A stretch of DNA of 21,447 nucleotides, taken from a virus. Positions 5,277-19,219 of the stretch are shown here, piece by piece. Made by a program: the position numbers and the translations under genes. How positions within the stretch are numbered: position 1 is the first letter of the stretch; the number at the start of each line of letters is the position of its first letter. A model generated the notes under the pieces. The model searched no databases. It saw only the letters and a program-made list of their open reading frames with translations, and was not told the DNA's origin. The DNA lies in IMG/VR virus record IMGVR_UViG_3300021960_005016, positions 1 to 21,447 of that record; one strand, written 5' to 3'.

Positions 5277-5278
5277 AA

Positions 5279-5539
5279 CTATTTGTCCTTACCAACTGTA
5301 ACTACAAGTGTTTCGAGATCATCGAACTCGTCAGCAACTTTAGACCAGTCGCCTTTGTGTGCAATTTTAATTGCTCTGTTGATAAGACTTGCTTTAATAT
5401 CAAGTTCTTCTGCTACTGCTTTAACAGTATCTTTCAAACCTGCACTTAAATCTTCAATCTCTCTCATTACGTTAGCACCTTCATTAACCAATCTTTCAAG
5501 TTTGGCTTTCTCGTCGGCACCGTATGTTCTGTCTGACAT
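5279..5539 (-). CDS. dsbA: DsbA-like double-stranded DNA-binding late-transcription factor
   Basis: 86 residues from the ATG at 5539 (MSDRTYGADEKAKLERL). The middle carries a helical stretch IKASLINRAIKIAHKGDW, which fits the DsbA family annotated in marine T4-like phages. The end is acidic, EFDDLETLV. T4 DsbA (89 residues) binds double-stranded DNA near late promoters and stimulates late transcription (established knowledge). An in-frame upstream ATG would add 19 residues, but these would run through the promoter and leader; the chosen ATG has AGGAG seven bases upstream. It is the first gene behind a near-consensus sigma70 promoter, so it is expected early, before the late promoters described here become active. 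Family assignment is by pattern only. Confidence 0.7.
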   Translation of the reverse strand: MSDRTYGADEKAKLERLVNEGANVMREIEDLSAGLKDTVKAVAEELDIKASLINRAIKIAHKGDWSKVADEFDDLETLVVTVGKDK

Positions 5540-5567
5540 TAAGTAACTCCTATTGTTAATGTGTATT

Positions 5568-5596
5568 ATTATATATTCACTTACAGCGGAAGTCAA
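5568..5596 (-). promoter_or_regulatory. Near-consensus sigma70 promoter of the dsbA-polymerase block
   Basis: The minus strand reads TTGACT (-35, 5596-5591), a 17-base spacer, then TATAAT (-10, 5573-5568). The expected transcript start is near 5561, about 20 bases before the dsbA ATG. This is the best host-type promoter I see in the window and it lies in a 62-base gap between genes. It likely drives dsbA, the small membrane proteins, HAD, polymerase and downstream genes early in infection. Confidence 0.8.
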
Positions 5597-5601
5597 GTAG
5601 T

Positions 5602-6198
5602 TTATTGAGACATTGCAAATAAATCAAAATATTTTTTAGTCCACCATTTTTCATTTTCTCGACTGTCAAATACAATATTGTTGGTAGCAAAATGAGTTGG
5701 CCTTTCACGATATCGTATTTTGACCGGTCCAGCGTCGTGCCAAACATCAGGTGTTCGATTTACTATAAATCCTCTTGGTGCAGTTGCTCCAAACCTTTTT
5801 TGAAATGGTAATTGTGCAAAGTCTAAAATCCATTTAGGTGTTACTACCACTTGATGCGTAGCAATCATTCCACCTTGGGTATGATCATTATGCCCAACTT
5901 TTGCGTTCCAACCTTTTGTAGGATGTTTGATATCTACTTCGTACTGTTTTACGTGTGCTTCAATTCCGTGAAGTCTTAATATTCTTCTTAGTATTTGTGA
6001 CAGTAAGATACATTGGTTGCCAATTTCATACAGCATATCCATTTGATACATTCTGCAATACACTGTTACAAGTCTATAATCTAAATCGACAACATCTTTA
6101 CCAACGGCTAAACTATAATCCTCTGGATTAAGATCCCAGTCTGGATCAAATTTCATTAGCGAATCAAAGAGTACTCGACCTTGTTCATCTACGTTCAT
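5602..6198 (-). CDS. Transglutaminase-like / papain-fold protein (putative)
   Basis: 198 residues. The arrangement of a Cys at the start of a helix (C63 in GNQCILLSQILRRI), a following loop ending LHGIEAHVKQY, then His (H115 in THQVVV) and Asp (D126 in WILDFAQL) fits the Cys-His-Asp triad of the transglutaminase-like superfamily. Members act as peptidases, peptide N-glycanases or cross-linking enzymes; the substrate cannot be told. There is no signal peptide, so it acts in the cytoplasm or in the virion. The ribosome site GGAGGA is strong and partly inside a hairpin just upstream. Upstream lies the longest non-coding region of the window. I infer the fold from pattern only, so it could be an unrelated protein of unknown function. 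Confidence 0.5.
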   Translation of the reverse strand: MNVDEQGRVLFDSLMKFDPDWDLNPEDYSLAVGKDVVDLDYRLVTVYCRMYQMDMLYEIGNQCILLSQILRRILRLHGIEAHVKQYEVDIKHPTKGWNAKVGHNDHTQGGMIATHQVVVTPKWILDFAQLPFQKRFGATAPRGFIVNRTPDVWHDAGPVKIRYRERPTHFATNNIVFDSRENEKWWTKKYFDLFAMSQ

Positions 6199-6207
6199 TG
6201 TGTTCCT

Positions 6208-6226
6208 CCATTAACATCGTTAATGG
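6208..6226 (-). promoter_or_regulatory. Hairpin touching the ribosome site of the transglutaminase-like gene
   Basis: In the mRNA sense: CCAUUAAC, loop GAU, GUUAAUGG, a perfect 8-bp stem. The last two G of the stem are the first two bases of the GGAGGA ribosome site (6209-6204), and the AUG at 6198 follows. The hairpin could mask the site or hold it next to an upstream structure. It has no following U-run on either strand, so it is not a terminator. A regulatory role is inference. Confidence 0.5.
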
Positions 6227-6364
6227 CGAGTGAACCGAACCGAATGTAACGTCACCTTATGTAAATAATAACCTTTGTTTTGTCACCAGCCGTGTCGTAC
6301 GCGATCACTGTCACCAAAAGTAGGCGTTCCTATAAGTTACCGTCAATCAGCATTAACGTAAAAG

Positions 6365-6372
6365 TATTTATG
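6365..6372 (-). promoter_or_regulatory. T4-type late promoter CATAAATA (upstream of 6198 gene)
   Basis: The minus strand reads CATAAATA followed by CTTTT, with a predicted start at A6359. It lies just after the stop of the 186-residue gene and about 160 bases before the next ATG, so the transcript would have a long leader. It differs at one position from the T4 TATAAATA consensus. Confidence 0.55.
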
Positions 6373-6375
6373 GTT

Positions 6376-6936
6376 TTATGTTTGACTTGATAGTCGATGT
6401 GAGACTTTACTAATTAAGTACTGCAAAGACACATTAGACCATATGTTATGATCTTGCGGTTCATAATCATAGATAGGCACTATATTTTTCATTTCTGGAA
6501 TAAATTCTTTAGTTATTAAATTACCAATATAAATTGATTCTTTTACCTTTGTAGTATCAGTAAGTTCTACATCAAACAGTGTTGGGCCGTTAAACATAAG
6601 TTGTTCAAACTCAACAGTTTCTCCTTCGTTAATTGTAATTGGAAATGGTTGTGCTTCTAATTCATATCCATTAAATTTATACAAAGGTGTTTCAATTGGT
6701 TGATCAAATGTAATTTTTCCTTTCTTTCCATTTAGGATAGCAGGATAATCTACCAAACATTTTTCTAATGTAAGTGATCCTTTAGTTACTTCAATTTTAA
6801 TATTGCAACTATCGTGTAGAGTTGTTTCTGTAGAAAAACTATAAATTAAATCTGTATTAGATGATTCTGATAATTCTTGATTGATATAAACTTTGTATTC
6901 AGCATTGTTAATGCCATAAAGTTTTAAGGTACGCAT
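6376..6936 (-). CDS. Hypothetical late protein, 186 residues, beta-rich
   Basis: I do not recognise a family with known function. The sequence alternates short hydrophobic and polar segments typical of all-beta folds, for example VYINQELSES, ITFDQPIETPLYKF and PFPITINEGETVEFEQL. There is no signal peptide and no membrane segment. The start at 6936 has a GAAAGGA ribosome site and its own late-type promoter (6968-6961), so it is expected late and may be a virion or assembly protein. It is the last gene before the long non-coding region. No catalytic motif is visible. Confidence 0.65.
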   Translation of the reverse strand: MRTLKLYGINNAEYKVYINQELSESSNTDLIYSFSTETTLHDSCNIKIEVTKGSLTLEKCLVDYPAILNGKKGKITFDQPIETPLYKFNGYELEAQPFPITINEGETVEFEQLMFNGPTLFDVELTDTTKVKESIYIGNLITKEFIPEMKNIVPIYDYEPQDHNIWSNVSLQYLISKVSHRLSSQT

Positions 6937-6960
6937 AATATTCCTTTCAAAGTGTAAAAA

Positions 6961-6968
6961 TACTTATG
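6961..6968 (-). promoter_or_regulatory. T4-type late promoter CATAAGTA (6936 gene)
   Basis: The minus strand reads CATAAGTA then TTTTT, with a predicted start at A6955. This leaves a 19-base leader containing GAAAGGA before the ATG at 6936. The G in the sixth position departs from TATAAATA, so it is a weaker match. Confidence 0.5.
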
Positions 6969-6971
6969 CGT

Positions 6972-7622
6972 TTATGTGTCGAGGGTTTCGTCTTTTGACT
7001 TGTATGCCCATTCGTCAGTGTGTCCTACACTCCACTTAGGTGTGTTTTCAACTGTGTAGTTTTGGGTACATACTTTGAAGTCCGGAGTAAGTTTCTTATC
7101 CGGAACTAAACTTTGATCAGTCCAAACAATTCTATTATTTGGTTGTGCGGTAAATTGGCCGTTTTCTAATTTAATAAAGTTAAATGATTTGTGTTCTGGG
7201 TCGTGTTCTGAAAAGTTTACGTTTAATGAATTATTATCTCTATGGCAAGTATCAAGTGTAAACATATATTCGCCTTTGTGCATTTTTCGATCTTTACCAA
7301 AGAACTCGCAATCGCATAGCATAGGCTTTTTAATTACTGTAATGTCGTAATCAAAACAATCCCATATTTGTAAATGGTCTAATGGAAGTTGGTTGTCTTT
7401 GTCGTAATCTTCTTTCCAAACAAATGCACTAATAGGTAGTTTGTCGTATAATGCACCGTACTCAGTTAACAGTGTTTCAATGTATAGTGCTTTACTTTCT
7501 ATGCTTCTAATTGAAATCCAAATGCCAGGAGTAAGTTCTCCGTGTCCTTTTTGATGATCGTAGAGGTATTCTTTTTTAACAAAGACTTCAACAGGCGGTA
7601 GGTTATGCACAAGAAAAGACAT
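6972..7622 (-). CDS. Conserved marine T4-like phage protein, unknown function
   Basis: 216 residues. The N-terminus (MSFLVHNLPPVEVFVKKEYL) and segments such as YGALYDKLPISAFVW and CEFFGKDRKMHKGEYMFTLD recall a protein I know as conserved in T4-like cyanophages, where it has no assigned function. It has no signal peptide and is rich in aromatic residues. Cysteines occur at CDC near residue 120 and at later positions but form no obvious zinc motif. It has its own late promoter with a 20-base leader and an AAAGGAG ribosome site, so it should be strongly expressed late, which is compatible with a virion or assembly role. That role is inference. Confidence 0.75.
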   Translation of the reverse strand: MSFLVHNLPPVEVFVKKEYLYDHQKGHGELTPGIWISIRSIESKALYIETLLTEYGALYDKLPISAFVWKEDYDKDNQLPLDHLQIWDCFDYDITVIKKPMLCDCEFFGKDRKMHKGEYMFTLDTCHRDNNSLNVNFSEHDPEHKSFNFIKLENGQFTAQPNNRIVWTDQSLVPDKKLTPDFKVCTQNYTVENTPKWSVGHTDEWAYKSKDETLDT

Positions 7623-7647
7623 AGTGCTCCTTTAAGTTTGTTTAGTG

Positions 7648-7655
7648 TATTTATG
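7648..7655 (-). promoter_or_regulatory. T4-type late promoter CATAAATA (7622 gene)
   Basis: The minus strand reads CATAAATA then CACTA, with a predicted start at A7642 and a 20-base leader with AAAGGAG before the ATG at 7622. The TAA stop of the 47-residue gene (7653-7651) is inside the motif. Confidence 0.7.
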
Positions 7656-7794
7656 ACTTATTGGTCTTCTTCCGACCTTGACAGTGAGACTTTTGAGAGA
7701 ACCCTTTAGGGTTAGAACAGTTAATAGAGCGTTTGTATTTGTTGCTCCACTTTTCGTAAATTTCTAATTTCTTGAGAAGTTCAAGACGTTTCAT
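7651..7794 (-). CDS. 47-residue basic protein with NPKGFSQ...HC motif
   Basis: A short frame with ATG at 7794 that shares one base with the previous stop (TAATG) and TAA at 7653-7651. The N-terminus MKRLELLKKLEIYEK is a charged amphipathic helix. The C-terminal half has C26 and C38 in INCSNPKGFSQKSHCQGRKK, very rich in Lys and Arg. I recall this NPKGFSQ...HCQGRKK signature as a recurring tail in marine phage proteins, without known function. It could bind nucleic acid or a metal with Cys and His. Coupled start, conserved-looking motif and exact fit between neighbours support a real gene. Confidence 0.7.
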   Translation of the reverse strand: MKRLELLKKLEIYEKWSNKYKRSINCSNPKGFSQKSHCQGRKKTNKS

Positions 7795-8390
7795 TACATC
7801 TTGACGCAGTTGTCTACAGTTTTGCCACCTTTTTTCTTGGTGCCCATTCTTTTATAGCCTTTCCAGCATACTTTGCCGTCAACGCCTTTTTGTTTTTCTT
7901 CTGGTAATGTAGTGTAACTTGGTTTTCCACACTCTTTACAAGTACCAAGTTTATTTTCTAACATTTTAGATAAACTTGTTTTATAGTCTGAGGATTCTTT
8001 TTTAGCAAATTGTGGTGGTACTTCACCTTTTTTAGGCTTGCTACCTTTGTCTTTAAGTGCCTTCTTCATTGGCTCTTTTTTGTCGCCATCTTTGTCTACA
8101 TCAAGAAAGTCTGGCTTAGATTTCTTTGCTTCTGCTACTTCATCAAATTTAGTTTCATAATCCATATGATGGTATACTGAACTAATGTAGTCAGCGGCTT
8201 TTGTAATCTTTGCTTGAACCCAACCTTCAAGGCCGTCTGCTTCGCTAACGCCCTTCATCATTTCATGAAGTTTAATTGCGTACTTGGCTACTTTGTACAA
8301 CTCGGCACGTGCCATTTGTACTTCGTGATCTGATTCAGCCTTGTATGCTAAATCTGCTAAACCTTCAGTTGTAAGTTCTTTCTTTTTCAT
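7794..8390 (-). CDS. Late protein with DxDxDG loop and C-terminal Cys module
   Basis: 198 residues in three parts. Residues 1-85 are helical and start with MKKKELTTEG, similar to the starts of neighbouring genes. Residues 91-115 hold KPDFLDVDKDGDKKEPM, with a DxDxDGxxxE pattern (D97, D99, D101, E106) like short Excalibur/dockerin-type calcium loops; nearly the same module occurs in the 281-residue protein at 16227-15382. Residues 150-198 hold C151, C154, C175 and C195 in a basic tail (CWKGYKRMGTKKKGGK...NC), perhaps a zinc site. I recall such tails in many marine phage proteins. Function is unknown; capsid packaging is a hypothesis. The start lies five bases after a late promoter. Confidence 0.75.
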   Translation of the reverse strand: MKKKELTTEGLADLAYKAESDHEVQMARAELYKVAKYAIKLHEMMKGVSEADGLEGWVQAKITKAADYISSVYHHMDYETKFDEVAEAKKSKPDFLDVDKDGDKKEPMKKALKDKGSKPKKGEVPPQFAKKESSDYKTSLSKMLENKLGTCKECGKPSYTTLPEEKQKGVDGKVCWKGYKRMGTKKKGGKTVDNCVKM

Positions 8391-8395
8391 AATAG

Positions 8396-8403
8396 TATTT
8401 ACC
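8396..8403 (-). promoter_or_regulatory. Late promoter GGTAAATA five bases before the 8390 start
   Basis: The minus strand reads GGTAAATACTATTATG, matching the extended T4 late consensus TAAATACTATT with the ATG directly behind it. By T4 geometry the transcript would begin at the A of the ATG. The TAA stop of the previous gene (8401-8399) is inside the motif. A GAGG lies 11 bases before the ATG and could serve read-through transcripts. Confidence 0.6.
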
Positions 8404-9355
8404 TCTTAACTGTGCTTCCGCCCATTAAATTATTGCCCATGTCTAAAGCGTTTACTGCTGTACCGTCTGCTTTTTTCTTTTGTGGCGCCTTGGGTAAGCC
8501 TTTTGAATCTTTTGGTCTATGTCCGTATGCTTGTGCTGGATTTGCCACTGAAGCAATATTACCTGCTGAAGTTGCTCCTGCTGTTGCTACTTCTTTAATA
8601 CCTGCAAGTGCTTTCATTTCGTTTGCAAAATCAGATGCTTGTGTTTGTTGTGTTTCTGATGTACCTGAAACTAATTTTGCTAATTGCATAATATGATCTG
8701 CTTCGTCAACCGGCTTGTCTTTATCAAGTGCCGCTTTACGCTTCATTAATTCTTTTTTAAGTTCTGGATCTTTTGATGTTTCTGGATTCGTTTGAATATC
8801 CTGCAATGCTTTTTTCTTAGCATCGTAATCATCTTTGTCTTTAGTAGGTGTATAGTTAGATGATTCTGCTGGTGCCGCACCTTTTTCTGCTTGTTTAACC
8901 AGCATCATAAACTTTTGACGCATTGCTTGATCACCGAGAATAGTTGTTAACTGTTTTGCAAATGGAGCAATTTGTTTAGCAAGGTTACCTTGTAATGCAC
9001 CGCCTGATGCAAGTTTATCTAAACCCTTTGCCATCATAGCACCCGAACCACCTTTAGCACCCATAGCCGAAGTAGCCATTTTAGCACCTTGTGCTGTTTT
9101 TTGTGCCGCTTGTTTATCAGCACCAGAAGCCATTCCAGCAACTTTACCTGCAACACCACCTTGTTGTTGTGCCGCCGTTTTAACATCGTCTTTAGATGCT
9201 CCTGTAGCGTTTGCTACTGCACCTACAGCCATATCAGCACCTTTTTGTGCTACTTTGCCAGCCGCCGCCTTAACTGCACCAGCCGCCTTTTGAGCACCAG
9301 TTTTCATAGCATCTAATGGGTTTGCTTCTGTTGTTGTTAATTCTCTCAGTTTCAT
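8399..9355 (-). CDS. Ala/Gly/Lys-rich late protein, putative internal head protein
   Basis: 318 residues of strongly biased composition. After MKLRELTTTEANP comes about 110 residues rich in Ala, Gly, Lys and Gln (for example KAAGAVKAAAGKVAQKGAD), reminiscent of histone H1-like or amphipathic-helix proteins. A more ordinary helical part follows (about 125-160, KQLTTILGDQAMRQKFMMLV), then a charged middle and a Gly/Pro-containing C-terminus. There is no membrane helix long enough to be convincing and no catalytic motif. The start resembles the T4 internal-protein capsid-targeting peptide. It has a late promoter five bases before the ATG. A packaged DNA-associated protein is my best guess, but composition alone is weak evidence. 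Confidence 0.7.
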   Translation of the reverse strand: MKLRELTTTEANPLDAMKTGAQKAAGAVKAAAGKVAQKGADMAVGAVANATGASKDDVKTAAQQQGGVAGKVAGMASGADKQAAQKTAQGAKMATSAMGAKGGSGAMMAKGLDKLASGGALQGNLAKQIAPFAKQLTTILGDQAMRQKFMMLVKQAEKGAAPAESSNYTPTKDKDDYDAKKKALQDIQTNPETSKDPELKKELMKRKAALDKDKPVDEADHIMQLAKLVSGTSETQQTQASDFANEMKALAGIKEVATAGATSAGNIASVANPAQAYGHRPKDSKGLPKAPQKKKADGTAVNALDMGNNLMGGSTVKR

Positions 9356-9359
9356 ATTA

Positions 9360-10925
9360 CTATTTACCTTTTTTTCCGCCCTTCATATTAGCACACCAGT
9401 GATACATTTTGCCTTTTTCACCACCATGTTTACGAGCCTTAGCACGTAAACTACTTACAGATCCTTTACAACTTGCACCAGCCTTCTTGACTCTGCCCGG
9501 ACGACTTTTACCCTTTTTTTTACCGTCAGCAAAGTTTTCACTTACATCAGGACTTTTTTTTAGACCAATTATAAGCCTATATGCATTAGGATCATCACTA
9601 ATTACTTCGTCGTATTGTGCGTCTTTGTAACCATCAGCGTCTTGCACATCATAACCAAGACGTTTTAGTTGTTTTAACATATATGCTTTTTCTTTGTCAC
9701 CACCATAAAACTGCACCATGATATCAGGATCATCTGGATTCATATCGTTTGGGTCAATATCTTTAATGTTTGCCATATTAGTACCAAGTTTTATAAAGTC
9801 ATAATCAGCATCAGATTTGACCAATGAAGTATTTTTAGGATTAGGAATTAATTCACCTTCATCTGTTTTTTTATTAAACTTATGTGTGTACGCATCTTTA
9901 TCACCACGTGCCGCCGCGGCTCTTCTTGCTTTAACTTTATCTGCAACACTTGGCTCTTCTGGAGCACGTTTCTTTTTAATCGTTGTACGTGGAACATTAC
10001 GAGTAGCAAACCCTAATATTTCATTTGTGTTTTCTTCTGCTGGTTTATTAAAGTAATCTTTTAAACTTGAAGCAGTTCTTTCAAACTTGTGATCTTTGTG
10101 CTTAAATCCAACGCCACCTGCAGATTGCCATTTAGAAACGTTTTGACCAAAGTCGTCAATTAGTATGTTAGGTGTACCGTCTGGTTGTTTTGCATATGCT
10201 TGTTTGTCTGTGGTAATAATAACTTTCTTAGGCGGAAATGCTGATAGATTATTTTTAACCCATTCTCTTTTGTGTGGTTCTGCTCTGTCGTCATTAGCAA
10301 GAGGAGCAGAAAGAATATTGTACTCGCCTTTAATATCTTTAATGATACCTAATAGTTTATCTGCATTAGGTGTAGGCTTTAGTTTTAACCAAAAATCTTC
10401 TGTATCTCTAATCTTTTGTAATGCGGCATCAACATTTTTAATTTGTTTCCAATCTTTGACACCCATCATTTTAGTCCATTCACCAAAGAAGTCTACAAGT
10501 ACACCGTCCATATCCACATAGATTTCTGAATCGCTTGATAGTTCTTTGCCTTTAAGTTCGTTAAGTTTAGATTCTTTTGCCATCTTAGTTGCAGTTGCAT
10601 ACATGACTGCTTCTGCATCATCACCATAACGCTTTTTAAAATCTTTTTTGTTTTTCTTCATACCTTTGACGTATTTTTCTTTGTCTTTTTCTTCGCCTTT
10701 GGTAAGTGAACGTTCTTCAACACTTTCGGCCATACCTAAGTTGAATAGTACGTTTGTTTTAGAACCTTTGACTTTTTTGCTTAATGTTGGCGGACGGCCG
10801 TCTTTATCAACTTTGAAACCAAGTTTGCCTGCTTCAATTGGAATCTGATTTACTCCAACATCAGGCGTTGTATTAACACCTTTTACAATTCTTCCACCAA
10901 ATTCTTTTAGTTCTTGCCATCTCAT
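9360..10925 (-). CDS. Multidomain protein with HAD 5'-nucleotidase-like domain and shared phage modules
   Basis: 521 residues. Residues 1-70 begin MRWQELKEFGGR. Residues 77-117 hold a module (KYVKGMKKNKKDFKKRYG ... AVMYATATKMAKE) nearly identical to the end of the 281-residue protein upstream. Residues 132-290 form a HAD domain of deoxy-5'-nucleotidase type: D138 and D140 in YVDMDGVLVDF, S206 in ILSAP, K241-K246 region, and D257/D258 in ILIDDFG. An acidic region at about 375-470 and a basic Cys tail (C484, and WCANM near 512) follow. The HAD motifs look intact, so dephosphorylation of nucleotides is plausible. Domain order suggests an enzyme tethered inside a larger structural or packaged protein. 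ATGA-type overlap couples it to the gene upstream. Confidence 0.8.
   Translation of the reverse strand: MRWQELKEFGGRIVKGVNTTPDVGVNQIPIEAGKLGFKVDKDGRPPTLSKKVKGSKTNVLFNLGMAESVEERSLTKGEEKDKEKYVKGMKKNKKDFKKRYGDDAEAVMYATATKMAKESKLNELKGKELSSDSEIYVDMDGVLVDFFGEWTKMMGVKDWKQIKNVDAALQKIRDTEDFWLKLKPTPNADKLLGIIKDIKGEYNILSAPLANDDRAEPHKREWVKNNLSAFPPKKVIITTDKQAYAKQPDGTPNILIDDFGQNVSKWQSAGGVGFKHKDHKFERTASSLKDYFNKPAEENTNEILGFATRNVPRTTIKKKRAPEEPSVADKVKARRAAAARGDKDAYTHKFNKKTDEGELIPNPKNTSLVKSDADYDFIKLGTNMANIKDIDPNDMNPDDPDIMVQFYGGDKEKAYMLKQLKRLGYDVQDADGYKDAQYDEVISDDPNAYRLIIGLKKSPDVSENFADGKKKGKSRPGRVKKAGASCKGSVSSLRAKARKHGGEKGKMYHWCANMKGGKKGK
9361..9368 (-). promoter_or_regulatory. Late promoter GGTAAATA five bases before the 9355 start
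   Basis: The minus strand reads GGTAAATA, GTAAT, then the ATG at 9355. The TAG stop of the HAD protein (9362-9360) overlaps the end of the motif. An AAAGG lies 12 bases from the ATG. Confidence 0.5.
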
Positions 10926-11146
10926 TTTTTACGGCTCCTTAATCCTGGAGGATACTCTTGACCCTTCCAGTAAGGACGGCTAAACCATAGTTTAAACCAA
11001 TCTTCATCACCTGGACGTAAATTCTTTTCTTTTTCTATACGTCTTTTTTCTGTACCTGTATGACTAATATTTTCGTCTACAGGTTTTAAACCTTTAAAAC
11101 TATATTCGCCAACACCTGCTAATTTTTTAAGTGTATCTAAGTCCAT
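10922..11146 (-). CDS. Hypothetical small late protein, 74 residues
   Basis: The protein starts MDLDTLKKLAGVGEYSF and has a charged middle (TGTEKRRIEKEKNLRPGDED) and an aromatic C-terminal part (WFKLWFSRPYWKGQEYPPG) ending in basic residues. I have seen similar short proteins in marine T4-like phages without function. Its ATG shares a base with the previous stop (TAATG), and its TGA overlaps the next ATG. It is therefore translated as part of the run cytidylyltransferase, this gene, HAD protein. The tryptophan-rich motif may bind a partner protein, but nothing shows which. Confidence 0.7.
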   Translation of the reverse strand: MDLDTLKKLAGVGEYSFKGLKPVDENISHTGTEKRRIEKEKNLRPGDEDWFKLWFSRPYWKGQEYPPGLRSRKK

Positions 11147-11715
11147 TATGACGCCTGTAGTATTGTTGATAAGTTATCGAACATCTTTTTAGCATAAGGT
11201 TGTGCCGCTTTAGTAACGCCTTTACTAAATGCTTCAAAGTTATTATCCATAACTGCTTGACGCATTTTACTTGCACTCATTCCTGATGCATCATCTGCAT
11301 CTGGATTACGTGATAATCTTTGAAACTTAATTTCTTCAAAATCGAAAAATCCGTGATCTTTTTTTATGCCGTTGTATTGTTCTAATAATTTACCTAACTT
11401 ATCTTCACCTTCGAAGAAAGTCACTTTAGAATAACCTCTTGCATACAAATCACTTGCGGCAAACATAATATTTTTAGATAGTTCTATTTTAATATCTGGG
11501 AAACTTTTTCTTGCCCAATCTAATTTTTCATTTGGGTTTAAAGGATCTGTTGGAAGTTTTGCGGCTCTGTCTGTTAAGAAAAGTATTGCATCACCTGGAC
11601 CTTGTTTAAGTGCTTCAACAAGTAAGCCGTGTCCTGTCGTAGCCGGATTAAGTCTTCCTAAAGCAAAACTAACTTCTTTGCCCAACTGTTCAACAAACAA
11701 TTCTCTTAACTGCAT
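11146..11715 (-). CDS. Cytidylyltransferase-fold nucleotidyltransferase
   Basis: 189 residues of the HIGH-motif nucleotidyltransferase superfamily (NMN/phosphopantetheine adenylyl- and cytidylyltransferases). The first motif is FALGRLNPATTGHGLLVEA at residues 17-35; the usual HxGH is TTGH here, as in many phage members. The second is SGMSASKMRQAV at about 143-154, corresponding to the ISSTxxR-type motif. It should transfer an AMP or CMP unit to a phosphorylated substrate such as NMN, but the substrate is not readable. Before the fold starts there is an extra peptide, MQLRELFVEQ, like those of neighbouring late genes and like T4 capsid-targeting peptides. Lies in a coupled run after terminase, so it is probably a late gene. 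Confidence 0.8.
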   Translation of the reverse strand: MQLRELFVEQLGKEVSFALGRLNPATTGHGLLVEALKQGPGDAILFLTDRAAKLPTDPLNPNEKLDWARKSFPDIKIELSKNIMFAASDLYARGYSKVTFFEGEDKLGKLLEQYNGIKKDHGFFDFEEIKFQRLSRNPDADDASGMSASKMRQAVMDNNFEAFSKGVTKAAQPYAKKMFDNLSTILQAS

Positions 11716-12044
11716 TAGTACTCACCTTCTTTAAATGCTTCTACTTCCTGTTCATAAATCATTTCTGCAAGTGATTTTCTTTCGTCCATAGTAATAAGAT
11801 CATTACCACGTTGTGGTAAGTCATATTTTTTAATATAATGATCTACACCTTTATCAATCATAGGTAAAATAATTTCAATCGTTTTATTTTTATCGCCATT
11901 ATTATAACAGTCTTGACATTTTGCCATAGTAGGGTAGTACATTTGCCTATAGAAAGCAGTATCGTCTCTCATATGACACAATAAGTCACTTGGAACATCA
12001 TATGAAGGGTTATCTTCTTTATTTAAAATATCATCAAATTTCAT
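11715..12044 (-). CDS. Hypothetical late protein, 109 residues
   Basis: The chosen ATG at 12044 (MKFDDILNKEDNPSYDVP) has an AGGAAG ribosome site seven bases upstream, formed by the end of the previous gene. A 19-residue upstream extension is open but would overlap that gene heavily. The protein is helical and acidic, with three Cys (in LLCHMRDD and AKCQDCYNN) and a segment HMRDDTAFYRQMYYPTMAKC that I associate with small marine phage proteins of unknown function. Its stop shares one base with the start of the nucleotidyltransferase gene. No function can be assigned. Confidence 0.7.
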   Translation of the reverse strand: MKFDDILNKEDNPSYDVPSDLLCHMRDDTAFYRQMYYPTMAKCQDCYNNGDKNKTIEIILPMIDKGVDHYIKKYDLPQRGNDLITMDERKSLAEMIYEQEVEAFKEGEY

Positions 12045-12045
12045 A

Positions 12046-13677
12046 TTACCACTTCCTGCAAGACCAATATCTTGCCTTTGTTCTTGGACCTGGATTATCA
12101 CAGTTATGTCTTGCTCGGAAACTTCTTCTACGTGCAGGGTTAGACTTTTTAATGCTCATTGCTTTACCTTTAACACTTGAGCCACCGTGTCCAAAGTTTA
12201 CTTTCTTTACGTTGCCTGTTTTAGGATCTTTTACATATACCTTAAACTTCTTAACGTCACCTTGCATAGGCTTACCAAGTTTAACTTTACGTCCTTGGTA
12301 CTCTGCTTCGTCCATGATGTCATCTTCGTTATACCACATCTCACCGTATGCTTCGTAAAAGTCATCATCGTCATCATATGTTTCGTCAATACTTGCACCA
12401 GCAAGTTCTTTAATTCTATCAACTTCTTTTTGACCCATCTTATCATCGTAGTCATCTTGTGCCGCATCCATTGCATACTCATGATCCGGACCATCTGGTC
12501 GAACTACCATTGTAGCAAATTCGTCATCAACTTTAGCATTGCCTTCATATTCTGACTCACCTCTTAATGAGTTAGGATCTACTTTACCGTTAACTACTTT
12601 ATAGTATAATGTACCATATGCTGTTTCACCGTCATCACCTGTGAATTCAAATTCTGTTTCGTATTCTTCGTTGTTGTGCGATTCTTCTTTTACAACTTCA
12701 TCCAAATCAAGTGTTGTTTCACTAATTCTTTTTTGATGTATTTTGTGTAATAGAGGGAACATATCTCTCAATTCATTGTTAAATTGAGGAATAGTAAAGG
12801 CATTGGTAAGATCATTTACAATGTCTTCTCCCAATTCGTCATCAGTTGACTCTAAAGGTTGGAAATTTTCTTTGTATTCTGAATAATATTTTTGACCTTG
12901 TAATTTTTTAATATGTTCTCTCAAACCGTTTAATTCTGCTTCAGCACCTTCAATAATATCACTTGAAGTTTGATTCATAAAATCTTTTCTACCAACATAT
13001 CTTTTGAATGCTGAAAGTTTAGCAATGTTACCTGAAGTTTCAATAATGTGTTTACCTAATTCATCATGAGGAATACCGCCGTTAGCAACATGACGTGCCA
13101 TTGCTCTTGCGCCTGCTAAATGAGCAAACGGATATTTAAAACGTTCACCTGCTTCGTTTTCAATAAACAACGAACTAATATGTCTTGTTCTAGCACCAGT
13201 TTGTTCTGCGTTAATTTCTTTTTTATGTCTTACGATAAGTTTCGTCTTATCTAATTCCTCATAACTAGATTTTGTAGTTCCGTACATTGCCGACTCCTGA
13301 ACATTTTTGTTTGCCAAATAATTATAATCTCTTTTGTCTAAGTTTGCTTTTGCAATATCTCTAGTATCAAATTGCATCATGTGCCTCTTAGCAAAAAATC
13401 GCATTTCCTTAAGAAATGCATACCATTCATCTTCTTGTTGTTCAGACACATTTTCTAACATACCTTGGCTATAATAAATCTTTAATGTATCAGAATCTTT
13501 AATAGAAACAGATACAGCACCCTTGTTTTCACCGTTTGTTACATAATCAAAATCAAAGAAACGTGCTTGACTTTCATTTTGCGTAGGTGCACCAGTATCG
13601 TCGCCCATTTCCACACGTGGAAATCTCGATCTAATTTTCTCAAAAAGAGAAGTTGAAATAGAATCTAAACCCTTCAT
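12046..13677 (-). CDS. Large late protein with acidic middle and DUF5872-like C-terminal module
   Basis: 543 residues from the ATG at 13677 (MKGLDSISTSLFEKIRSRF). The first 300 residues look like a mixed helical domain. Residues about 305-460 are very acidic (runs such as YDDDDDFYE). The last 80 residues form a basic module that ends SFRARHNCDNPGP ... ARYWSCRKW, a tail I know from many unrelated marine phage proteins (DUF5872-like). Two Cys and aromatic residues in it may form a small fold. The function of the whole protein is unknown; its place right after terminase suggests head or packaging involvement. A longer frame would start at 13707 inside the terminase gene with no ribosome site; the chosen ATG is five bases after a late promoter but also lacks a Shine-Dalgarno sequence. 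Confidence 0.8.
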   Translation of the reverse strand: MKGLDSISTSLFEKIRSRFPRVEMGDDTGAPTQNESQARFFDFDYVTNGENKGAVSVSIKDSDTLKIYYSQGMLENVSEQQEDEWYAFLKEMRFFAKRHMMQFDTRDIAKANLDKRDYNYLANKNVQESAMYGTTKSSYEELDKTKLIVRHKKEINAEQTGARTRHISSLFIENEAGERFKYPFAHLAGARAMARHVANGGIPHDELGKHIIETSGNIAKLSAFKRYVGRKDFMNQTSSDIIEGAEAELNGLREHIKKLQGQKYYSEYKENFQPLESTDDELGEDIVNDLTNAFTIPQFNNELRDMFPLLHKIHQKRISETTLDLDEVVKEESHNNEEYETEFEFTGDDGETAYGTLYYKVVNGKVDPNSLRGESEYEGNAKVDDEFATMVVRPDGPDHEYAMDAAQDDYDDKMGQKEVDRIKELAGASIDETYDDDDDFYEAYGEMWYNEDDIMDEAEYQGRKVKLGKPMQGDVKKFKVYVKDPKTGNVKKVNFGHGGSSVKGKAMSIKKSNPARRRSFRARHNCDNPGPRTKARYWSCRKW

Positions 13678-13682
13678 AATGT

Positions 13683-13690
13683 TATTTATG
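13683..13690 (-). promoter_or_regulatory. Late promoter CATAAATA five bases before the 13677 start
   Basis: The minus strand reads CATAAATA, ACATT, then ATG. The terminase stop is three bases upstream of the motif. No Shine-Dalgarno sequence lies between terminase and this ATG, so the start may be used on a transcript beginning at or very near the ATG. Confidence 0.65.
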
Positions 13691-13693
13691 CTA

Positions 13694-15283
13694 TTAGAAA
13701 GAAACAAACACCGGCATTGGAGTTATCAATTCAGTGTCCATATCCTTCATTTTTTCGTAAATTGCTGGATCCCATTCCGCTAATATCTGTTGCATACGCA
13801 CATTTAGTAGTGTTGCTGACACTAAATCGTCATGCTCGCCTGTTTTAGCACCAAATGTAGTACCATGTGCAACATAGTTCTTGAGTTCTGATATTAGTGG
13901 TTTGCTTTTGATTTCCAGTTTGTGTGTTTCTAATAAATGCTTAAATTTAGCACAAGCACCCATTTTGGTTTTGTGTGTTGTGTTAAATCCTTTACGAAAC
14001 TTACGCACATGTCCTTTCCTAATAGGTTCACTTAAAAACATACCGTATATGTTTTCCTCTCCATAGTCCTTAACACTTACTAGTGCCGCTTCACCGATAG
14101 AGTTATTTTCAATGCTGTAATAAACTTGTGGTAACTGAGCACCCTTTGCTTCGCATTGTTCCTTAATAGTTTTTGTAATTTCTGCAAGTATTCTTACCTG
14201 TCCTTGAATTGGAGTTGTATTATGTTGCCATTCTGCTACTTGTTTAAAACTAGGAAGTTCAAATACTTGAATAGCCGCAAAGTCTCCTCCTGTACCTAAA
14301 CTAGGATCCATGCTAACAACATACGTGTACTTAGAATCACAATCTTTATACCAGCGTGTTTGTCCTAATCTACGTAGCGGTTCTTCGCCTTCCAATTCTG
14401 CAAGTCTAACACTATTAATTAATGTTTCATCAAAGATTAAAAACTCGCATTCATGTTCACGCCTAAAACGCTCTTCACCAATACGTGATTTTTCTTCTTC
14501 TGCCCATTTTTCATCTCTATCAGGGTGTTCACTCCAGTGTGCTGTAAAAGCAAAGAAACCATTTGTACCAACTTCTGTATCGTTTCCGTGTTCATCAAAT
14601 CGCTTATTTGCTTCTGTCCATATAAGTGCAAACTGATCCTCATCACTATTTGGTGTTGAAGTAATAATCGCCTTACCACCTGTTGCTAGTGTTGGAGAAA
14701 TTGCAGTCCAAAATTCTTTGGCAATAGTAGGATTAACAAACGCAAACTCATCACAATATAGTAAAGATATTGACATACCTCTACCAGTGTTATCTGTTGT
14801 TGTTTGTGATACAATACGCGAGCCATTATCAAATTCCATTGATCCTTTATTATAAGATGTAACTCCACAACGTATATGATCCGGACAATCTTCATAAGCA
14901 TAGCGAATACGATGCATAATTTCCTGAGCACCTGCATATTTGTGTGCCGCAATTAATATTGTTACATCTGGATTAAACATAGCATACCATAATAGATAAC
15001 CAGCCGCCGTAGTAGACTTACCTGTTTGTCTTGGTAGCATATTAATATTGAATCTATGATTGTGATATGAGTCTACAAGTCTTTCTTGGAATTCAAATGG
15101 TTCAAATAATAACTTACCTTTTGTTGGATGTTGGATATAAAAGAAATTATCCATAAAGAATTTTGCACCCGTAACAGGATCTGCACAGGCTTGTAACTCT
15201 TTAATTTCTTTTTCTGTATATCTGGTCTTGGAGTGTGCTTTTTTAACTAGTACTCCATCAAGACTCTTGCTATTTTGTACCAT
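13694..15283 (-). CDS. 17: Terminase large subunit (T4 gp17-like)
   Basis: The DNA-packaging motor ATPase and headful nuclease, 529 residues (T4 gp17 has 610). ATPase domain: Walker A PRQTGKST at 84-91, Walker B LLYCDE with D178 and E179, coupling motif TSTP at 208-211. Nuclease domain (RNase H-like): D326 in VSMDPSLG, E392 in YSIENNSIG, and D485/D486 in GEHDDLVSA. All expected catalytic residues are present. It cuts concatemeric DNA and pumps it into the prohead through the portal, working with the small subunit encoded upstream. Its transcription unit begins right after a terminator and a late promoter that ends five bases before the ATG; there is no Shine-Dalgarno sequence. Confidence 0.97.
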   Translation of the reverse strand: MVQNSKSLDGVLVKKAHSKTRYTEKEIKELQACADPVTGAKFFMDNFFYIQHPTKGKLLFEPFEFQERLVDSYHNHRFNINMLPRQTGKSTTAAGYLLWYAMFNPDVTILIAAHKYAGAQEIMHRIRYAYEDCPDHIRCGVTSYNKGSMEFDNGSRIVSQTTTDNTGRGMSISLLYCDEFAFVNPTIAKEFWTAISPTLATGGKAIITSTPNSDEDQFALIWTEANKRFDEHGNDTEVGTNGFFAFTAHWSEHPDRDEKWAEEEKSRIGEERFRREHECEFLIFDETLINSVRLAELEGEEPLRRLGQTRWYKDCDSKYTYVVSMDPSLGTGGDFAAIQVFELPSFKQVAEWQHNTTPIQGQVRILAEITKTIKEQCEAKGAQLPQVYYSIENNSIGEAALVSVKDYGEENIYGMFLSEPIRKGHVRKFRKGFNTTHKTKMGACAKFKHLLETHKLEIKSKPLISELKNYVAHGTTFGAKTGEHDDLVSATLLNVRMQQILAEWDPAIYEKMKDMDTELITPMPVFVSF

Positions 15284-15288
15284 ACTAT

Positions 15289-15296
15289 TATTTATT
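15289..15296 (-). promoter_or_regulatory. Late promoter AATAAATA five bases before the terminase start
   Basis: The minus strand reads AATAAATA, ATAGT, then ATG at 15283. The last 15 bases, TAAATAATAGTATGG, are identical to those before the gene at 19219. It follows a terminator, so terminase mRNA should begin here; no ribosome site precedes the ATG. Confidence 0.7.
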
Positions 15297-15329
15297 GGGT
15301 ATTTTGGTGTGCTATGATGTTTTAGATAA

Positions 15330-15353
15330 TAAAAAGCCCCGCTTCCGCGAGGC
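15330..15353 (-). terminator. Rho-independent terminator after the 281-residue gene
   Basis: The RNA would fold GCCUCGC, loop GGAA, GCGGGGC (7-bp stem with one G-U pair, 15353-15336), followed by UUUUUAUU. It lies 29 bases beyond the preceding stop and ends the block that starts at 19219. Confidence 0.85.
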
Positions 15354-15355
15354 CC

Positions 15356-15375
15356 AATCCTAAGGTAGTAGGATT
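15356..15375 (-). repeat. Second hairpin directly before the terminator
   Basis: AATCCTA, loop CTACCT, TAGGATT: a perfect 7-bp inverted repeat that ends two bases before the terminator stem and begins six bases after the stop codon. A U-run does not follow it, so it is probably an accessory 3'-end structure, for example one that protects the mRNA from 3' exonucleases. Confidence 0.6.
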
Positions 15376-15381
15376 AAAAAA

Positions 15382-16227
15382 TTATGCGTTCTTTTTAGCC
15401 ATTTTAGTTGCAGTTGCATACATTACCGCTTCTGCATCATCGCCGTATCTCTTTTTAAAATCGCCTTTGGCTTTTTTCATGCCTTTAACATATTTTTCTT
15501 TTGTTTTTTCTTCTGGCTTAGATAATTTCTTTTCGTTTACAAATGTTGTCCACTCGCCTTTTAATCTTTCTTCGAGACCTTCTAATGGATTGTCGCCTTG
15601 TTTAGAAAATTTACGTGGTAATTTTTTAAGTTCTGTTTTACCATATGTATCTTCTAGTTCATCATCGCTATACCATTCGCCTTCTTTTTCATCTCCCATT
15701 GAATTAGCATATCCTTCATATGGTGATGGATCTTTTACTCTAATGTCTTTAGGATGTTTGCTTCCATTTAAACCTGTTAAGCCTGCAAGTGTAGTAATAT
15801 CTGCTACATCGCCATGATGTACATCTGGCTCGTTTTCATAATCGCCGCCGCATGGTGTACCATTGATGCTATCATCTGGTTTCATTGATACTATCGGAGC
15901 ATCATCTTGTGGCATCATGTCTGGCGATACTTTTTGCATACCAGCAAGTGCCATAATTCTTTGAAGCATTGGTAAATCTTCTGGAGAGTTAGCAGTAATT
16001 GTAATTGCTTCGTTAGTTTTTTCTTTTTTATCTTTAATGGCTTTTTTCATAGGCTCTTTTTTGTCACCATCTTTATCTACATCAAGAAAATCTGGTTTTG
16101 CTTTTTTAGCCTCTTTAACACCGTTTGCTTTTTCTGTATTTTCGATTGCGTCAGTATGAACGTTAGGATTTTTTTCATCTAACTCTCTTAGTCTTTTTAA
16201 TACATCAATCATTTCAATACTAGCCAT
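15382..16227 (-). CDS. Late protein built from two shared phage modules
   Basis: 281 residues. After a helical start (MASIEMIDVLKRLRELDEKN) comes the module KPDFLDVDKDGDKKEPM (about 45-61) with the same DxDxDGxxxE loop as in the 198-residue protein at 8390-7794. The middle (about 90-225) is acidic and Pro/Gly-rich and probably flexible. The last 45 residues (KYVKGMKKAKGDFKKRYG ... AVMYATATKMAKKN) nearly repeat residues 77-117 of the HAD protein. No catalytic motif. Start overlaps the previous stop (TAATG) with GGAGAAG upstream. A terminator follows, so this is the last gene of its unit. A structural, scaffolding or packaged role is possible; none is shown. Confidence 0.75.
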   Translation of the reverse strand: MASIEMIDVLKRLRELDEKNPNVHTDAIENTEKANGVKEAKKAKPDFLDVDKDGDKKEPMKKAIKDKKEKTNEAITITANSPEDLPMLQRIMALAGMQKVSPDMMPQDDAPIVSMKPDDSINGTPCGGDYENEPDVHHGDVADITTLAGLTGLNGSKHPKDIRVKDPSPYEGYANSMGDEKEGEWYSDDELEDTYGKTELKKLPRKFSKQGDNPLEGLEERLKGEWTTFVNEKKLSKPEEKTKEKYVKGMKKAKGDFKKRYGDDAEAVMYATATKMAKKNA

Positions 16228-16727
16228 TATTCTTCTCCGTCGAATCTTTCTTTTTTATCTTTAACAAGACTTTGTAAGAAAGTTTCTTTTCCTTTTTCAG
16301 TTGCTACTAATTCATCTTTATCAACTTTAGGTGCATCTTTATATTCACCGTCTGTTAATTTTGTTTCATATGGTTTATCATCTTTTTCTTTTTGATATTC
16401 TTCATATGGTTCACCTGGCATACGTACTCTAATATGTTCTGGATTTAAATTTAATACGTTAGCAAGATAGTGTCTTAAATGATCTTGTGTTGAAGGATAA
16501 TTTAGCGTTGTTTCATAAACCGTAACTTCGCAATTTGATAGTTGTGGAAAATCTAACGGTAAACTTTGAATTGGTGTTTTCTTACCTGACGATAGATTTG
16601 CAACATCAAACTTTTTAAGTGCAACTTCTAAACTATCTTCGAAATTTTCGTCAAGTTCTCCTGCGACTTTAATAACAAAGTCATATTGTTTACTTGTTTC
16701 TGCTAGATATTTTTTAAATCCGACCAT
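16227..16727 (-). CDS. Conserved marine T4-like phage protein with capsid-targeting-like start
   Basis: 166 residues. The start MVGFKKYLAETSKQYDFVIK closely resembles the T4 internal-protein leader MKTYQEFIAE, where prohead protease gp21 cuts after an LxE/IxE site; YLAE would fit. Residues about 15-105 look like a compact alpha/beta domain with two repeated-looking halves (ferredoxin-like; my inference) containing KKTPIQSLPLDFPQL and EVTVYETTLNYPSTQ. The C-terminal third is charged and probably disordered. I recall relatives in marine T4-like phages without function. It has its own late promoter and an AAGGA ribosome site nine bases before the ATG. Confidence 0.75.
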   Translation of the reverse strand: MVGFKKYLAETSKQYDFVIKVAGELDENFEDSLEVALKKFDVANLSSGKKTPIQSLPLDFPQLSNCEVTVYETTLNYPSTQDHLRHYLANVLNLNPEHIRVRMPGEPYEEYQKEKDDKPYETKLTDGEYKDAPKVDKDELVATEKGKETFLQSLVKDKKERFDGEE

Positions 16728-18091: not shown

Positions 18092-19219
18092 TTATTCACC
18101 TGATGTTTGTAAAGCATTAACCGACTGATTAGTTGTTGTAGATGTTGCCAATCCTGTATCAATTTGATTAGGATTTTGTCCTTTTTCTTTTGCTTGTACA
18201 TCTTTATTTGCATCAATTTTATCAGCACCTTTTTGATTCATAATTTCTTGTGTTGAATTAAAAATTGCTCTTTTCGTGATACCTGCAATCTCTTGCTTAA
18301 CACTATCACTTGACAAACGGTCTGCTTTGTCTACAACATTTTTTGCTTTAATTGCAGTACCGATAAGTGCAAAAGGATTTGAAAACGCTTCTCCGCTCAT
18401 TACGTCACCGAAGATATCTAAGCCACCAGCAATTACACCATTGGCTCCGAACAATCCTCCGCCACCTGCTTGTATAGGAGATGGTGATCTATCATAATGT
18501 ATTTGTGCAAACCCTGCTGGATTATCAACACTTATGGATCCATAACCATATTGAATACCTTCATAGATAACCTGCATTTGATTTTCTGCCGGTTGACTAT
18601 CACCTGCTGTCATGTTTGGCGGATCCCAACTTGACACAATAGGATTAATTAATTTAAATTCATGAAATTTATGTTGAGACAATTGATATATCGAGATGTC
18701 TCTAAAAAATTTAACACTTACATCACTGCTATAACCAAACTTCATGTAACTTGCTTCTGGTGGATTATATAGTTTATGTTTTTCTAACACCGTGGGAAAC
18801 AAACTATCATGATAATATGTTTGAAAATATTGTCGCCATAACGCGGCAGTTAATCCTCTATTATCATCATGAAATGTAAATGTCACTGGCTGATATTGAA
18901 CTGCTGTTTGAAAATTTGTTTTCTTTCCGTATTGATTTTTAACTTCTGTATTAACCTGCACTCCTGGAAGTTTTACATCTTTAACTAGCATACCACATTC
19001 TACTTGAGGCAATGCTTTATTAAAAATTGCATCAGGTGACTTTACTGCTTGTTGATTAATATTAAAAACAACATGATAAAGAAACTTGACTTTTGGAGCC
19101 AGTTTCATGTAGTCGTCAGTAAACAACCTTGCGGCGTGTTGATAATCGCTCATATCCCCGCGACTACCAAATATTCCGTCTACTACACTACCTAAGAATT
19201 TTGTAAATTTATTGGCCAT
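18092..19219 (-). CDS. Tail-tube-related virion protein (gp19/gp54-like fold), putative
   Basis: 375 residues. The central part looks like the tail-tube fold: CGMLVKDVKLPGVQVNTEVK, YQPVTFTFHDDNRG and MQVIYEGIQYGYGSISVDNP resemble the strand order of gp19 (LTKQVIDVTRP..., QPITLTVRDDVNN..., FVQDINYNQLTYSDSNP). The N-terminal 40 residues and a Gly/Ala-rich, then Gln/Asn/Thr-rich C-terminal third are extra. T4 gp54 (320 residues), the tube initiator on the baseplate, has this combination of tube-like domain and long tail, so a tube initiator or terminator is possible. The gene follows gp19 after a terminator and late promoter; there is no Shine-Dalgarno sequence at its ATG. Exact identity is uncertain. 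Confidence 0.6.
   Translation of the reverse strand: MANKFTKFLGSVVDGIFGSRGDMSDYQHAARLFTDDYMKLAPKVKFLYHVVFNINQQAVKSPDAIFNKALPQVECGMLVKDVKLPGVQVNTEVKNQYGKKTNFQTAVQYQPVTFTFHDDNRGLTAALWRQYFQTYYHDSLFPTVLEKHKLYNPPEASYMKFGYSSDVSVKFFRDISIYQLSQHKFHEFKLINPIVSSWDPPNMTAGDSQPAENQMQVIYEGIQYGYGSISVDNPAGFAQIHYDRSPSPIQAGGGGLFGANGVIAGGLDIFGDVMSGEAFSNPFALIGTAIKAKNVVDKADRLSSDSVKQEIAGITKRAIFNSTQEIMNQKGADKIDANKDVQAKEKGQNPNQIDTGLATSTTTNQSVNALQTSGE

Follow-up and report, generated by a model that had tools for sequence, protein, structure and literature searches.

Unrelated proteins encoded by a marine T4-like phage begin with a shared short N-terminal peptide that is real and above chance. We analyzed a 21,447-nt stretch of DNA, here called the window (IMG/VR record IMGVR_UViG_3300021960_005016, positions 1-21,447; Table 1), in which the peptide looks, from its residue pattern, like a T4 prohead-protease site within a shortened T4 capsid-targeting sequence (CTS). 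The peptides are likely T4 internal-protein-type capsid-targeting propeptides that would be cut by a gp21-like protease, with their cargo retained in the head and delivered at infection. The favored reading is a peptide of T4 type that serves to load enzymes into the head and to be processed, for which we infer cleavage, delivery and function.

Table 1. Features of the window (the slash marks the position after Glu).
Feature	Position	Strand	Observation
47-aa ORF MKRLELLKK, weak member, no E	7651-7794	-	conserved in three relatives
Modular protein (KPDFLDVDKDGDKKEPMKKA and C-terminal Cys module), start MKKKELTTEG	7794-8390	-	relatives M[KR]xK[DEHQ]LKEGL
Ala/Lys-rich protein, start MKLRELTTTEA	8399-9355	-	relatives keep MKLRELT..EA
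IKE/VATAGATSAGNIASV, copy of major capsid protein site context (KYLAE/AATAGATSAGNVATL in G12)	8546-8599	-	phrog_17311 matches both proteins
Modular protein, HAD 5'-nucleotidase-like domain at residues ~135-290, start MRWQELKE	9360-10925	-	Pfam NT5C 4.4e-8; phrog_2643 2e-22
N-terminal tag MRWQELKE of HAD protein	10902-10925	-	E8 invariant in alignment; E precedes GRIVKGVNTT module
Small cluster protein MDLDTLKKLAGVGEY, untagged	10922-11146	-	conserved in relatives
Nucleotidyltransferase-fold protein (PPAT/NMNAT-like; "cytidyltransferase" of cyanophages), start MQLRELFVEQ	11146-11715	-	phrog_3041 1.7e-32; AF2 and PDB fold matches
N-terminal tag MQLRELFVE of nucleotidyltransferase	11689-11715	-	residues 1-10 pLDDT<50; 21/26 relatives with (L/I)xE
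Small cluster protein MKFDDILNKED	11715-12044	-	conserved in relatives
Composite ORF	12046-13677	-	N-terminal part of terminase-side protein (native 745 aa) and C-terminal part of MTKKFRDYLKE protein
Exact 50-nt stretch, probable mis-join point	12621-12670		common to both native loci
Modular protein with KPDFLDVDKDGD and KYVKGMKKAKGDFKKRYGDDAEAVMYATATK modules common to the 7794 and 9360 proteins	15382-16227	-	profile match, relatives
Head protein MVGFKKYLAET, between small and large terminase genes	16227-16727	-	phrog_14802 virion structural protein; 64 relatives among viral contigs
N-terminal tag MVGFKKYLAE, canonical T4-like	16698-16727	-	KYLAE also at G12 capsid protein site

A shared N-terminal peptide on unrelated proteins

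Comparison of relatives of the nucleotidyltransferase and the HAD protein, which have unrelated folds, reveals convergence over the first ~8 residues to one pattern, M-x-Phi-x-[EDQ]-[L/I]-x-E, with the octamers MRLRQLYE and MKLRELFE each occurring identically in relatives of both. An (L/I)xE tripeptide lies at residues 8-11 in 21 of 26 distinct nucleotidyltransferase relatives, 29 of 41 HAD relatives and 9 of 10 members of a second nucleotidyltransferase family, against 1.6-2.9% in an internal-position control. The comparison of homologous N-termini proposed in the sequence-only reading showed the start pattern to be kept while most letters change: MQLRELFVE or MFLRELFEA for the nucleotidyltransferase, MRWQELKE, MRFKDLTE, MKFSEIKE or MKFIDFKE for the HAD protein, MKLRELTTTEA or MKLRELTLKEA for the 8399 protein, and MKKKELTTEG or MREKDLKEG for the 7794 protein. 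Residues M1 and E8 are invariant across 31 aligned HAD relatives; among 55 relatives, almost all have Glu immediately ahead of the GRIVKGVNTT module, and some variants carry KD at positions 7-8 instead of (L/I)xE.

A genome-wide motif search, also proposed from the sequence, succeeded with some motifs and failed with another. The motif M.Phi.[DEQKN]Phi, taken from the other lineage and thus a held-out test, occurs in 6 of 10 cluster genes versus 5 of 179 genes elsewhere in a related 182-kb genome, G12 (Fisher p=1.5e-6), and a T4-CTS regex matches 5 of 15 cluster genes versus 3 of 184 others in C48C1 (p=6e-5), but the T4-spaced regex by itself showed no enrichment in G12 or HTVC008M. In a set of 986 distinct N-termini drawn from 114 contigs, 85 of 180 module proteins fit the pattern, compared with 107 of the 806 remaining proteins and with 2.4% of internal positions (p about 1e-21).

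Tag spacing is canonical for T4 (targeting positions 4 and 7, Glu 10) in C48C1, S-SM1, S-CREM2, S-SCSM1, S-SZBM1 and the window 16227 protein, and is shortened to 3, 6 and 8-9 in the window lineage, where it is weak in the 7794 and 8399 proteins. The cleavage sites first proposed for these starts hold in strict (L/I)xE form for the HAD protein (LKE) and MVGFKKYLAE (LAE), but the nucleotidyltransferase has FVE, MKKKELTTE and MKLRELTTTE have TTE with T at P3, and MKRLELLKK has no E. The nucleotidyltransferases of HTVC008M, PA5oct and S-PM2 likewise have no clean (L/I)xE site.

Predicted cargo enzymes and a T4-type processing context

Conserved GRLNPATTGH (HxGH-like) and SGMSASKMR (SxTxxR-like) motifs and a predicted fold place the nucleotidyltransferase in the nucleotidylyltransferase superfamily (PPAT/NMNAT). 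Its AF2 model (pLDDT 90.5) begins to fold at residue 13 after a disordered stretch covering residues 1-10, and a fold search against the PDB matched 4nah (PPAT) and 2qjo (NadM) with TMq about 0.6, although a sequence search against the PDB gave no match. For the HAD domain, a DxDGV nucleophile and a DD motif point to a 5'(3')-deoxyribonucleotidase (NT5C), with a Pfam NT5C score of 33.7 bits against a cut-off of 24.8 and the catalytic residues D138, D140, D257 and D258 invariant in 31 sequences. The full-length HAD model is of low confidence (pLDDT 66) and says little, so the scores below 50 at residues 1-15 were not counted as evidence; nor was an entropy profile of the RARHNC family taken as independent evidence, because its sequences were picked by motif.

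The window itself contains no gp21-like protease gene, but the relative G12 encodes such a protease at 94474-95100 (phrog_207 1.7e-56), and relatives also encode a portal and a capsid protein. After Glu, small tagged proteins (L192, L193) match the mature capsid protein, with REILE/AATAGATSAGS compared to RKYLAE/AATAGATSAGN. The T4 CTS comprises the first 10 residues of IPIII, in which residues 4 and 7 serve targeting and residues 8 and 10 processing, and gp21 cleaves after L/I-x-E (PMC9026906). Hydrophobic residues at the targeting positions, a processing Glu, (L/I)-x-E in several families and a gp21-type protease in a relative argue for a T4-type CTS, in agreement with the original proposal of a T4 internal-protein-like peptide with T4-type protease sites on unrelated proteins.

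Structure of the window

The window is probably made of two distant genome parts wrongly joined at the exact 50-nt repeat. The C-terminal half of the composite ORF derives from a 235-aa native protein with a RARHNC module that starts MTKKFRDYLAE or MTKKFRDYLKE in relatives, and MTKKFRDYLKE, the clearest member of the tag set, is absent from the window because the mis-join took away its start. Every start quoted in the sequence-only reading is present on the minus strand and has a plausible start codon, but MVGFKKYLAE is no neighbor of the others because the join at 12621-12670 alone links them; in relatives its gene lies near terminase, tens of kb from the cluster, so the proposed cassette is not contiguous. 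Two different phages in one contig would fit the lack of terminase in the G001 contig, a reading weakened by the scaffold-like gene at the G001 contig end and by G12, which carries both window halves in one genome. The simpler explanation is that parts of the genome of a single phage type were mis-joined; alternatively, the window may combine two close relatives or come from a recent recombinant.

Tagged enzymes in cyanophage virions

Published mass spectrometry detected the nucleotidyltransferase in virions of S-SM1, S-CREM2, S-SCSM1 and S-SZBM1, and combining these detections with N-termini compiled here reveals that all four proteins start with canonical T4-like tags (S-SM1 MKKFSAFLNEA, S-SCSM1 MKSFLQFLKEA, S-SZBM1 MRFRQFIIEA; cytidylyltransferase of S-CREM2 MKNFSSFLTEA). 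Virion-detected S-CREM2 proteins also include a SAM hydrolase (MKDFDSFLEE), a kinase (MKRFDAFLTE), gp13 (MKDLHSFLTE) and gp136 (MQTFSMFFSE), and the tag occurs in 5 of 41 detected S-CREM2 proteins versus about 1 of 146 others (p=0.002). In S-PM2, the nucleotidyltransferase domain sits behind another domain without a tag, and the protein is reported as not detected in virions. The S-SCSM1 cluster proteins 90, 92 and 93 were detected in virions and have no tag, and the tagged S-SZBM1 proteins 191 and 192 do not appear in the accessible part of the S-SZBM1 virion table.

The idea of a packaged protein set is partly supported by tagged nucleotidyltransferase homologs in published virions of other phages, but not as one cassette. 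The accompanying claim that no such system is described in marine phages was too strong, because published cyanophage work already describes virion-associated NMNAT-like proteins, kinases and a SAM hydrolase. These enzymes (NMNAT/cytidylyltransferase, kinase and SAM hydrolase in S-SM1, S-CREM2, S-SCSM1, S-SZBM1 and S-CBWM1) include a homologous nucleotidyltransferase and were reported as unexplained virion proteins, in contrast to the targeting-peptide reading here, and the authors of the proteomic studies caution that non-structural virion proteins may be carry-over. As far as the literature could be searched, no targeting peptide is named for cyanophage virion enzymes, and no published case of N-terminal processing in a marine phage came to light.

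Discussion

We propose that a tag of ~8-10 residues in this lineage, M-x-Phi-x-[ED]-Phi-x-E, would dock proteins on the prohead core through its hydrophobic pair during head assembly. Cleavage after Glu by a gp21-like protease would follow, so that the mature protein would remain alongside the DNA inside the head and enter the cell at infection. Predicted cargo comprises the nucleotidyltransferase (PPAT/NMNAT fold), the HAD 5'-nucleotidase-like protein and a group of modular proteins rich in Lys and Cys. In the host, this cargo would most likely act in early NAD or nucleotide metabolism.

An alternative that we regard as unlikely, though the strongest of the competitors, is that these are head components with a shuffled N-terminal assembly module, scaffold-like or DNA-binding, and are not delivered as enzymes. 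Modules common to neighbors and terminase-side proteins favor it, as do low-complexity Lys/Ala-rich and Cys modules that resemble packaging or DNA-binding parts, but the catalytic residues of the HAD protein and nucleotidyltransferase are conserved and, in S-CREM2, a SAM hydrolase and a kinase bear the tag. Improbable too is a tether for packaging or assembly only, in which the peptide would attach its protein to the prohead core or shell and stay uncleaved: no other tag residue is as conserved as Glu, and small proteins show the post-site sequence of the capsid protein after it, even if the window 7794 and 8399 proteins and the HAD variants with KD lack (L/I)xE and a T4 CTS with Asp at position 10 supports targeting without processing (PMC9026906). 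Chance or composition, by which AT-rich phage late genes tend to begin with MK or MR followed by hydrophobic and acidic residues, is rejected as highly implausible by the genome-wide, held-out and internal-position controls and by exact octamers common to unrelated folds, despite the short and loose initial list and an unbiased pairwise N-terminal test in which tail-fibre paralog blocks scored above the cluster in G1 and the G12 cluster was not among the best.

The T4 internal head proteins IPI, IPII and IPIII resemble the tagged proteins here in starting with about 10 residues that contain a hydrophobic i,i+3 pair and an (L/I)xE site and end in Glu, in a phage that has a gp21-type protease; the putative tag here is usually 1-2 residues shorter (E at 8-9) and is carried by enzymes and modular Cys/Lys-rich proteins. 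T4 Alt is an ADP-ribosyltransferase, an enzyme class that differs from the cargo here. It is likewise head-carried, and the prohead protease cuts both its ends (PMC9026906). In phiKZ and SPN3US, many head proteins are processed after Glu and some are ejected with the DNA (PMC9026906), but the phiKZ protease motif is S/A-x-E and the cargo of these phages is unrelated.

A broader reading, on which we judge the balance to be even, is that a single portable N-terminal tag for loading and cleavage serves marine T4-like phages (Kyanoviridae and relatives) to fill their heads with a changing set of enzymes and Cys/Lys-rich modules, which would arrive together with the DNA and strike first at host metabolism and defense. 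The cargo would include nucleotidyltransferases, HAD nucleotidase, ligase-like proteins, SAM hydrolase, kinase and a Cas9-annotated protein, and the tag would predict it. NMNAT-like enzymes and kinases have been detected repeatedly in cyanophage particles, with packaging versus carry-over so far undecided, and a readable tag with a defined cut site makes this question testable peptide by peptide. If the broader reading is true, virion cargo of uncultured phages could be predicted by reading the tag from sequence in a great many marine phage contigs, where at least 590 stretches contain relatives of one module protein.

Shared N-terminal peptides in the cluster

Several proteins of the gene cluster at 7.8–12 kb begin with a short peptide (tag) that the sequence-only reading had likened to the start of T4 internal head proteins, known as the capsid-targeting sequence (CTS). 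The core idea holds, with details corrected. Two genome-scale tests were run on genomes other than the one defining the pattern: a short pattern occurs in 6 of 10 cluster genes of G12, the 182-kb genome of a relative, versus 5 of 179 others, and a T4-spaced pattern in 5 of 15 cluster genes of phage C48C1 versus 3 of 184 others. Close relatives keep the start pattern within each family, with varying letters. With 114 further contigs added, octamers such as MRLRQLYE and MKLRELFE occur identically in both the HAD and the nucleotidyltransferase family, which are unrelated in fold. The nucleotidyltransferases have an (L/I)xE ending at residues 8–11 in 21 of 26 cases, the HAD proteins in 29 of 41 and a second nucleotidyltransferase family in 9 of 10, compared with 1.6–2.9% at internal control positions; for two of the starts listed earlier, the proposed cut sites were corrected. 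All 31 HAD proteins of one alignment (a somewhat selected set, long-form starts excluded) have M1 and E8, and of 55 HAD proteins nearly all place a Glu directly before the GRIVKGVNTT module, also in long-form starts such as MKFHSLKDIENKVPKPGSFKHFLRIQE/HGG (slash, putative cut after Glu). The tag survives as a candidate head-loading peptide with a predicted T4-type cut site on marine phage enzymes.

Relation to T4 capsid targeting and processing

In T4, the first ten residues of IPIII are enough for targeting; positions 4 and 7 are important for it and positions 8 and 10 for processing, and the protease gp21 cuts after L/I-x-E (PMC9026906). Marine tags of cyanophages and C48C1, MTKKFRDYLAE and MVGFKKYLAE have T4 CTS spacing, whereas window-lineage tags are one to two residues shorter. 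G12 has genes for a gp21-like protease (phrog_207, 1.7e-56) and for a gp23-like capsid protein whose last (L/I)xE ahead of the capsid domain lies in KYLAE/AATAGATSAGNVATLN; because the alignment of mature T4 gp23 begins at about this point, we infer that this Glu is the probable cut site. Post-Glu sequence resembling that of the capsid protein follows the tag in small proteins of contigs L193 (MRFREILE/AATAGATSAGSVASV) and L192 (MRLREIIE/AATSGATSAGNVAAV), and the C-terminal part of the 8399–9355 protein contains the capsid-site context (IKE/VATAGATSAGNIASV). Proteins of ~70 aa in L192, L193, L179, L131, L197 and others consist of a tag joined to a copy of the N-terminal stretch that the capsid protein has after its putative site (ATAGATSAGN...VANP). 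T4 Alt is reportedly cut at both ends (PMC9026906); CTS-like C-terminal peptides are tabulated.

Coordinates of features in the window and related sequences
Sequence	Positions	Feature	TAAATA-N5-ATG
Window	7794-8390	ORF	yes
Window	8399-9355	Tagged protein (MKLRELTTTEA)	yes
Window	9360-10925	HAD protein (MRWQELKE)	
Window	11146-11715	Nucleotidyltransferase (MQLRELFVEQ)	
Window	12046-13677	Composite ORF	yes
Window	12621-12670	Repeat at probable mis-join	
Window	13694-15283	ORF	yes
Window	15382-16727	Modular/tagged, between terminase genes	
Window	16227-16727	ORF (MVGFKKYLAE)	
Window	18092-19219	ORF	yes
L243 (S-SCSM1 93)	10627-10836	CTS-like C-terminus, ...KKRTFKEFLEYIE	
G012	167754-168404	CTS-like C-terminus, ...SSLFKEYLDFVEKDV	
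L029 (C48C1)	10338-11561	KWDGAP protein	
L119 (DLP6)	5095-6330	KWDGAP protein	
HTVC008M gp127		KWDGAP protein	
S-PM2 S-PM2d138		KWDGAP protein	

A probable mis-join within the window

The 21,447-base virus record is from a T4-like marine phage, with genes on the minus strand and PHROGs matches to tail tube, head-closure protein, small and large terminase, two virion structural proteins, cytidyltransferase and a 5'-deoxyribonucleotidase-like protein. Contig L002 matches 1149–12670 at 99.96% identity and then diverges sharply; L034 matches from the opposite side at 99.2%, its exact match stopping at 12621; exactly 50 nt (12621–12670) are identical in both. Past the join, left-hand relatives carry a short gene whose product begins with MTKKFRDYLAE or a similar peptide, and in the two closest right-hand relatives the terminase-side ORF extends to 741–745 aa, followed by genes resembling gp32 and UvsX (names given by eye, using sequence and order). 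A ~93-residue module with 69% identity is common to the two native proteins, and the join lies at its edge. Both halves occur in G12, far apart (33–46 kb versus 162–175 kb). Because L002 and L034 diverge at the repeat and the halves are distant in G12, the composite ORF is most likely an assembly artefact, and the window probably joins two loci wrongly inside it. The MVGFKKYLAE start therefore belongs to the terminase-side locus, which breaks the single neighbouring cassette originally proposed, and the clearest cluster tag (MTKKFRDYLKE) is missing from the window. Several T4-like marine phages encode modular or tagged proteins between the small and large terminase genes, including S-SZBM1 (191, 192; L240) and S-SM1 (GC119).

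Tagged enzymes and virion proteomics

The nucleotidyltransferase was modelled confidently (pLDDT 90.5), with residues 1–10 disordered and the fold starting at residue 13, so tag removal would leave the enzyme whole; among solved structures, PPAT and NMNAT enzymes come closest in fold (TM about 0.6). NT5C is the Pfam match of the HAD domain (4.4e-8), whose catalytic Asp residues are conserved. Shuffled modules recur across the neighbouring proteins (KPDFLDVDKDGDKKEPMKKA; KYVKGMKK...YATATK), including Cys modules that contain RARHNC...WSC, MYHWCANM and xNCV. The equivalent neighbourhood encodes a P-loop protein starting MIPFILKEG in HTVC008M and KWDGAP ligase-like proteins in other phages, some tagged (DLP6 MMKFTQFLAES, C48C1 MMLDFKNFITEQ). 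KWDGAP proteins (ligase-like nucleotidyl transfer) also lie beside, or fused to, the cytidyltransferase (Table).

The suggestion that nothing of this kind was known in marine phages was too strong, as homologous enzymes were already reported in virions. The cytidylyltransferase T4-GC190 was detected in purified S-SM1 particles, though not by S-PM2 proteomics (Sullivan et al. 2010, PMC3037559), and virion cytidylyltransferases are reported for S-CREM2 (PMC10665884, Table 3), S-SCSM1 (PMC9602691) and S-SZBM1 (PMC9146016). The detected proteins begin MKKFSAFLNEA (S-SM1), MKNFSSFLTEA (S-CREM2), MKSFLQFLKEA (S-SCSM1) and MRFRQFIIEA (S-SZBM1); in S-PM2 the nucleotidyltransferase domain lies untagged behind a KWDGAP ligase-like domain. 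Tags also occur on virion-detected S-CREM2 SAM hydrolase (MKDFDSFLEE), APH/ChoK kinase (MKRFDAFLTE), gp13 (MKDLHSFLTE) and gp136 (MQTFSMFFSE), and Cas9-annotated gp12 has LRFASFMAEA internally at residues 17–26. With annotated starts, the canonical tag is on 5 of the 41 S-CREM2 proteins detected in virions and on about 1 of the 146 that were not (p=0.002), the undetected set being genes called here from 148 of 175 kb. The tag–virion link is a correlation, and the proteomic papers caution that virion detections may be carry-over. Among the papers found on the capsid-targeting sequence, none has a marine-phage title; as far as our searches reach, a targeting peptide on these marine virion enzymes is undescribed.

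In five window genes (Table), 8 genes in G001 and 17 in G012, TAAATA precedes the start codon by exactly 11 nt; in S-SM1 it peaks at 26–30 nt instead. If TAAATA is a T4-type late promoter, mRNAs would start at or next to the ATG and be leaderless.
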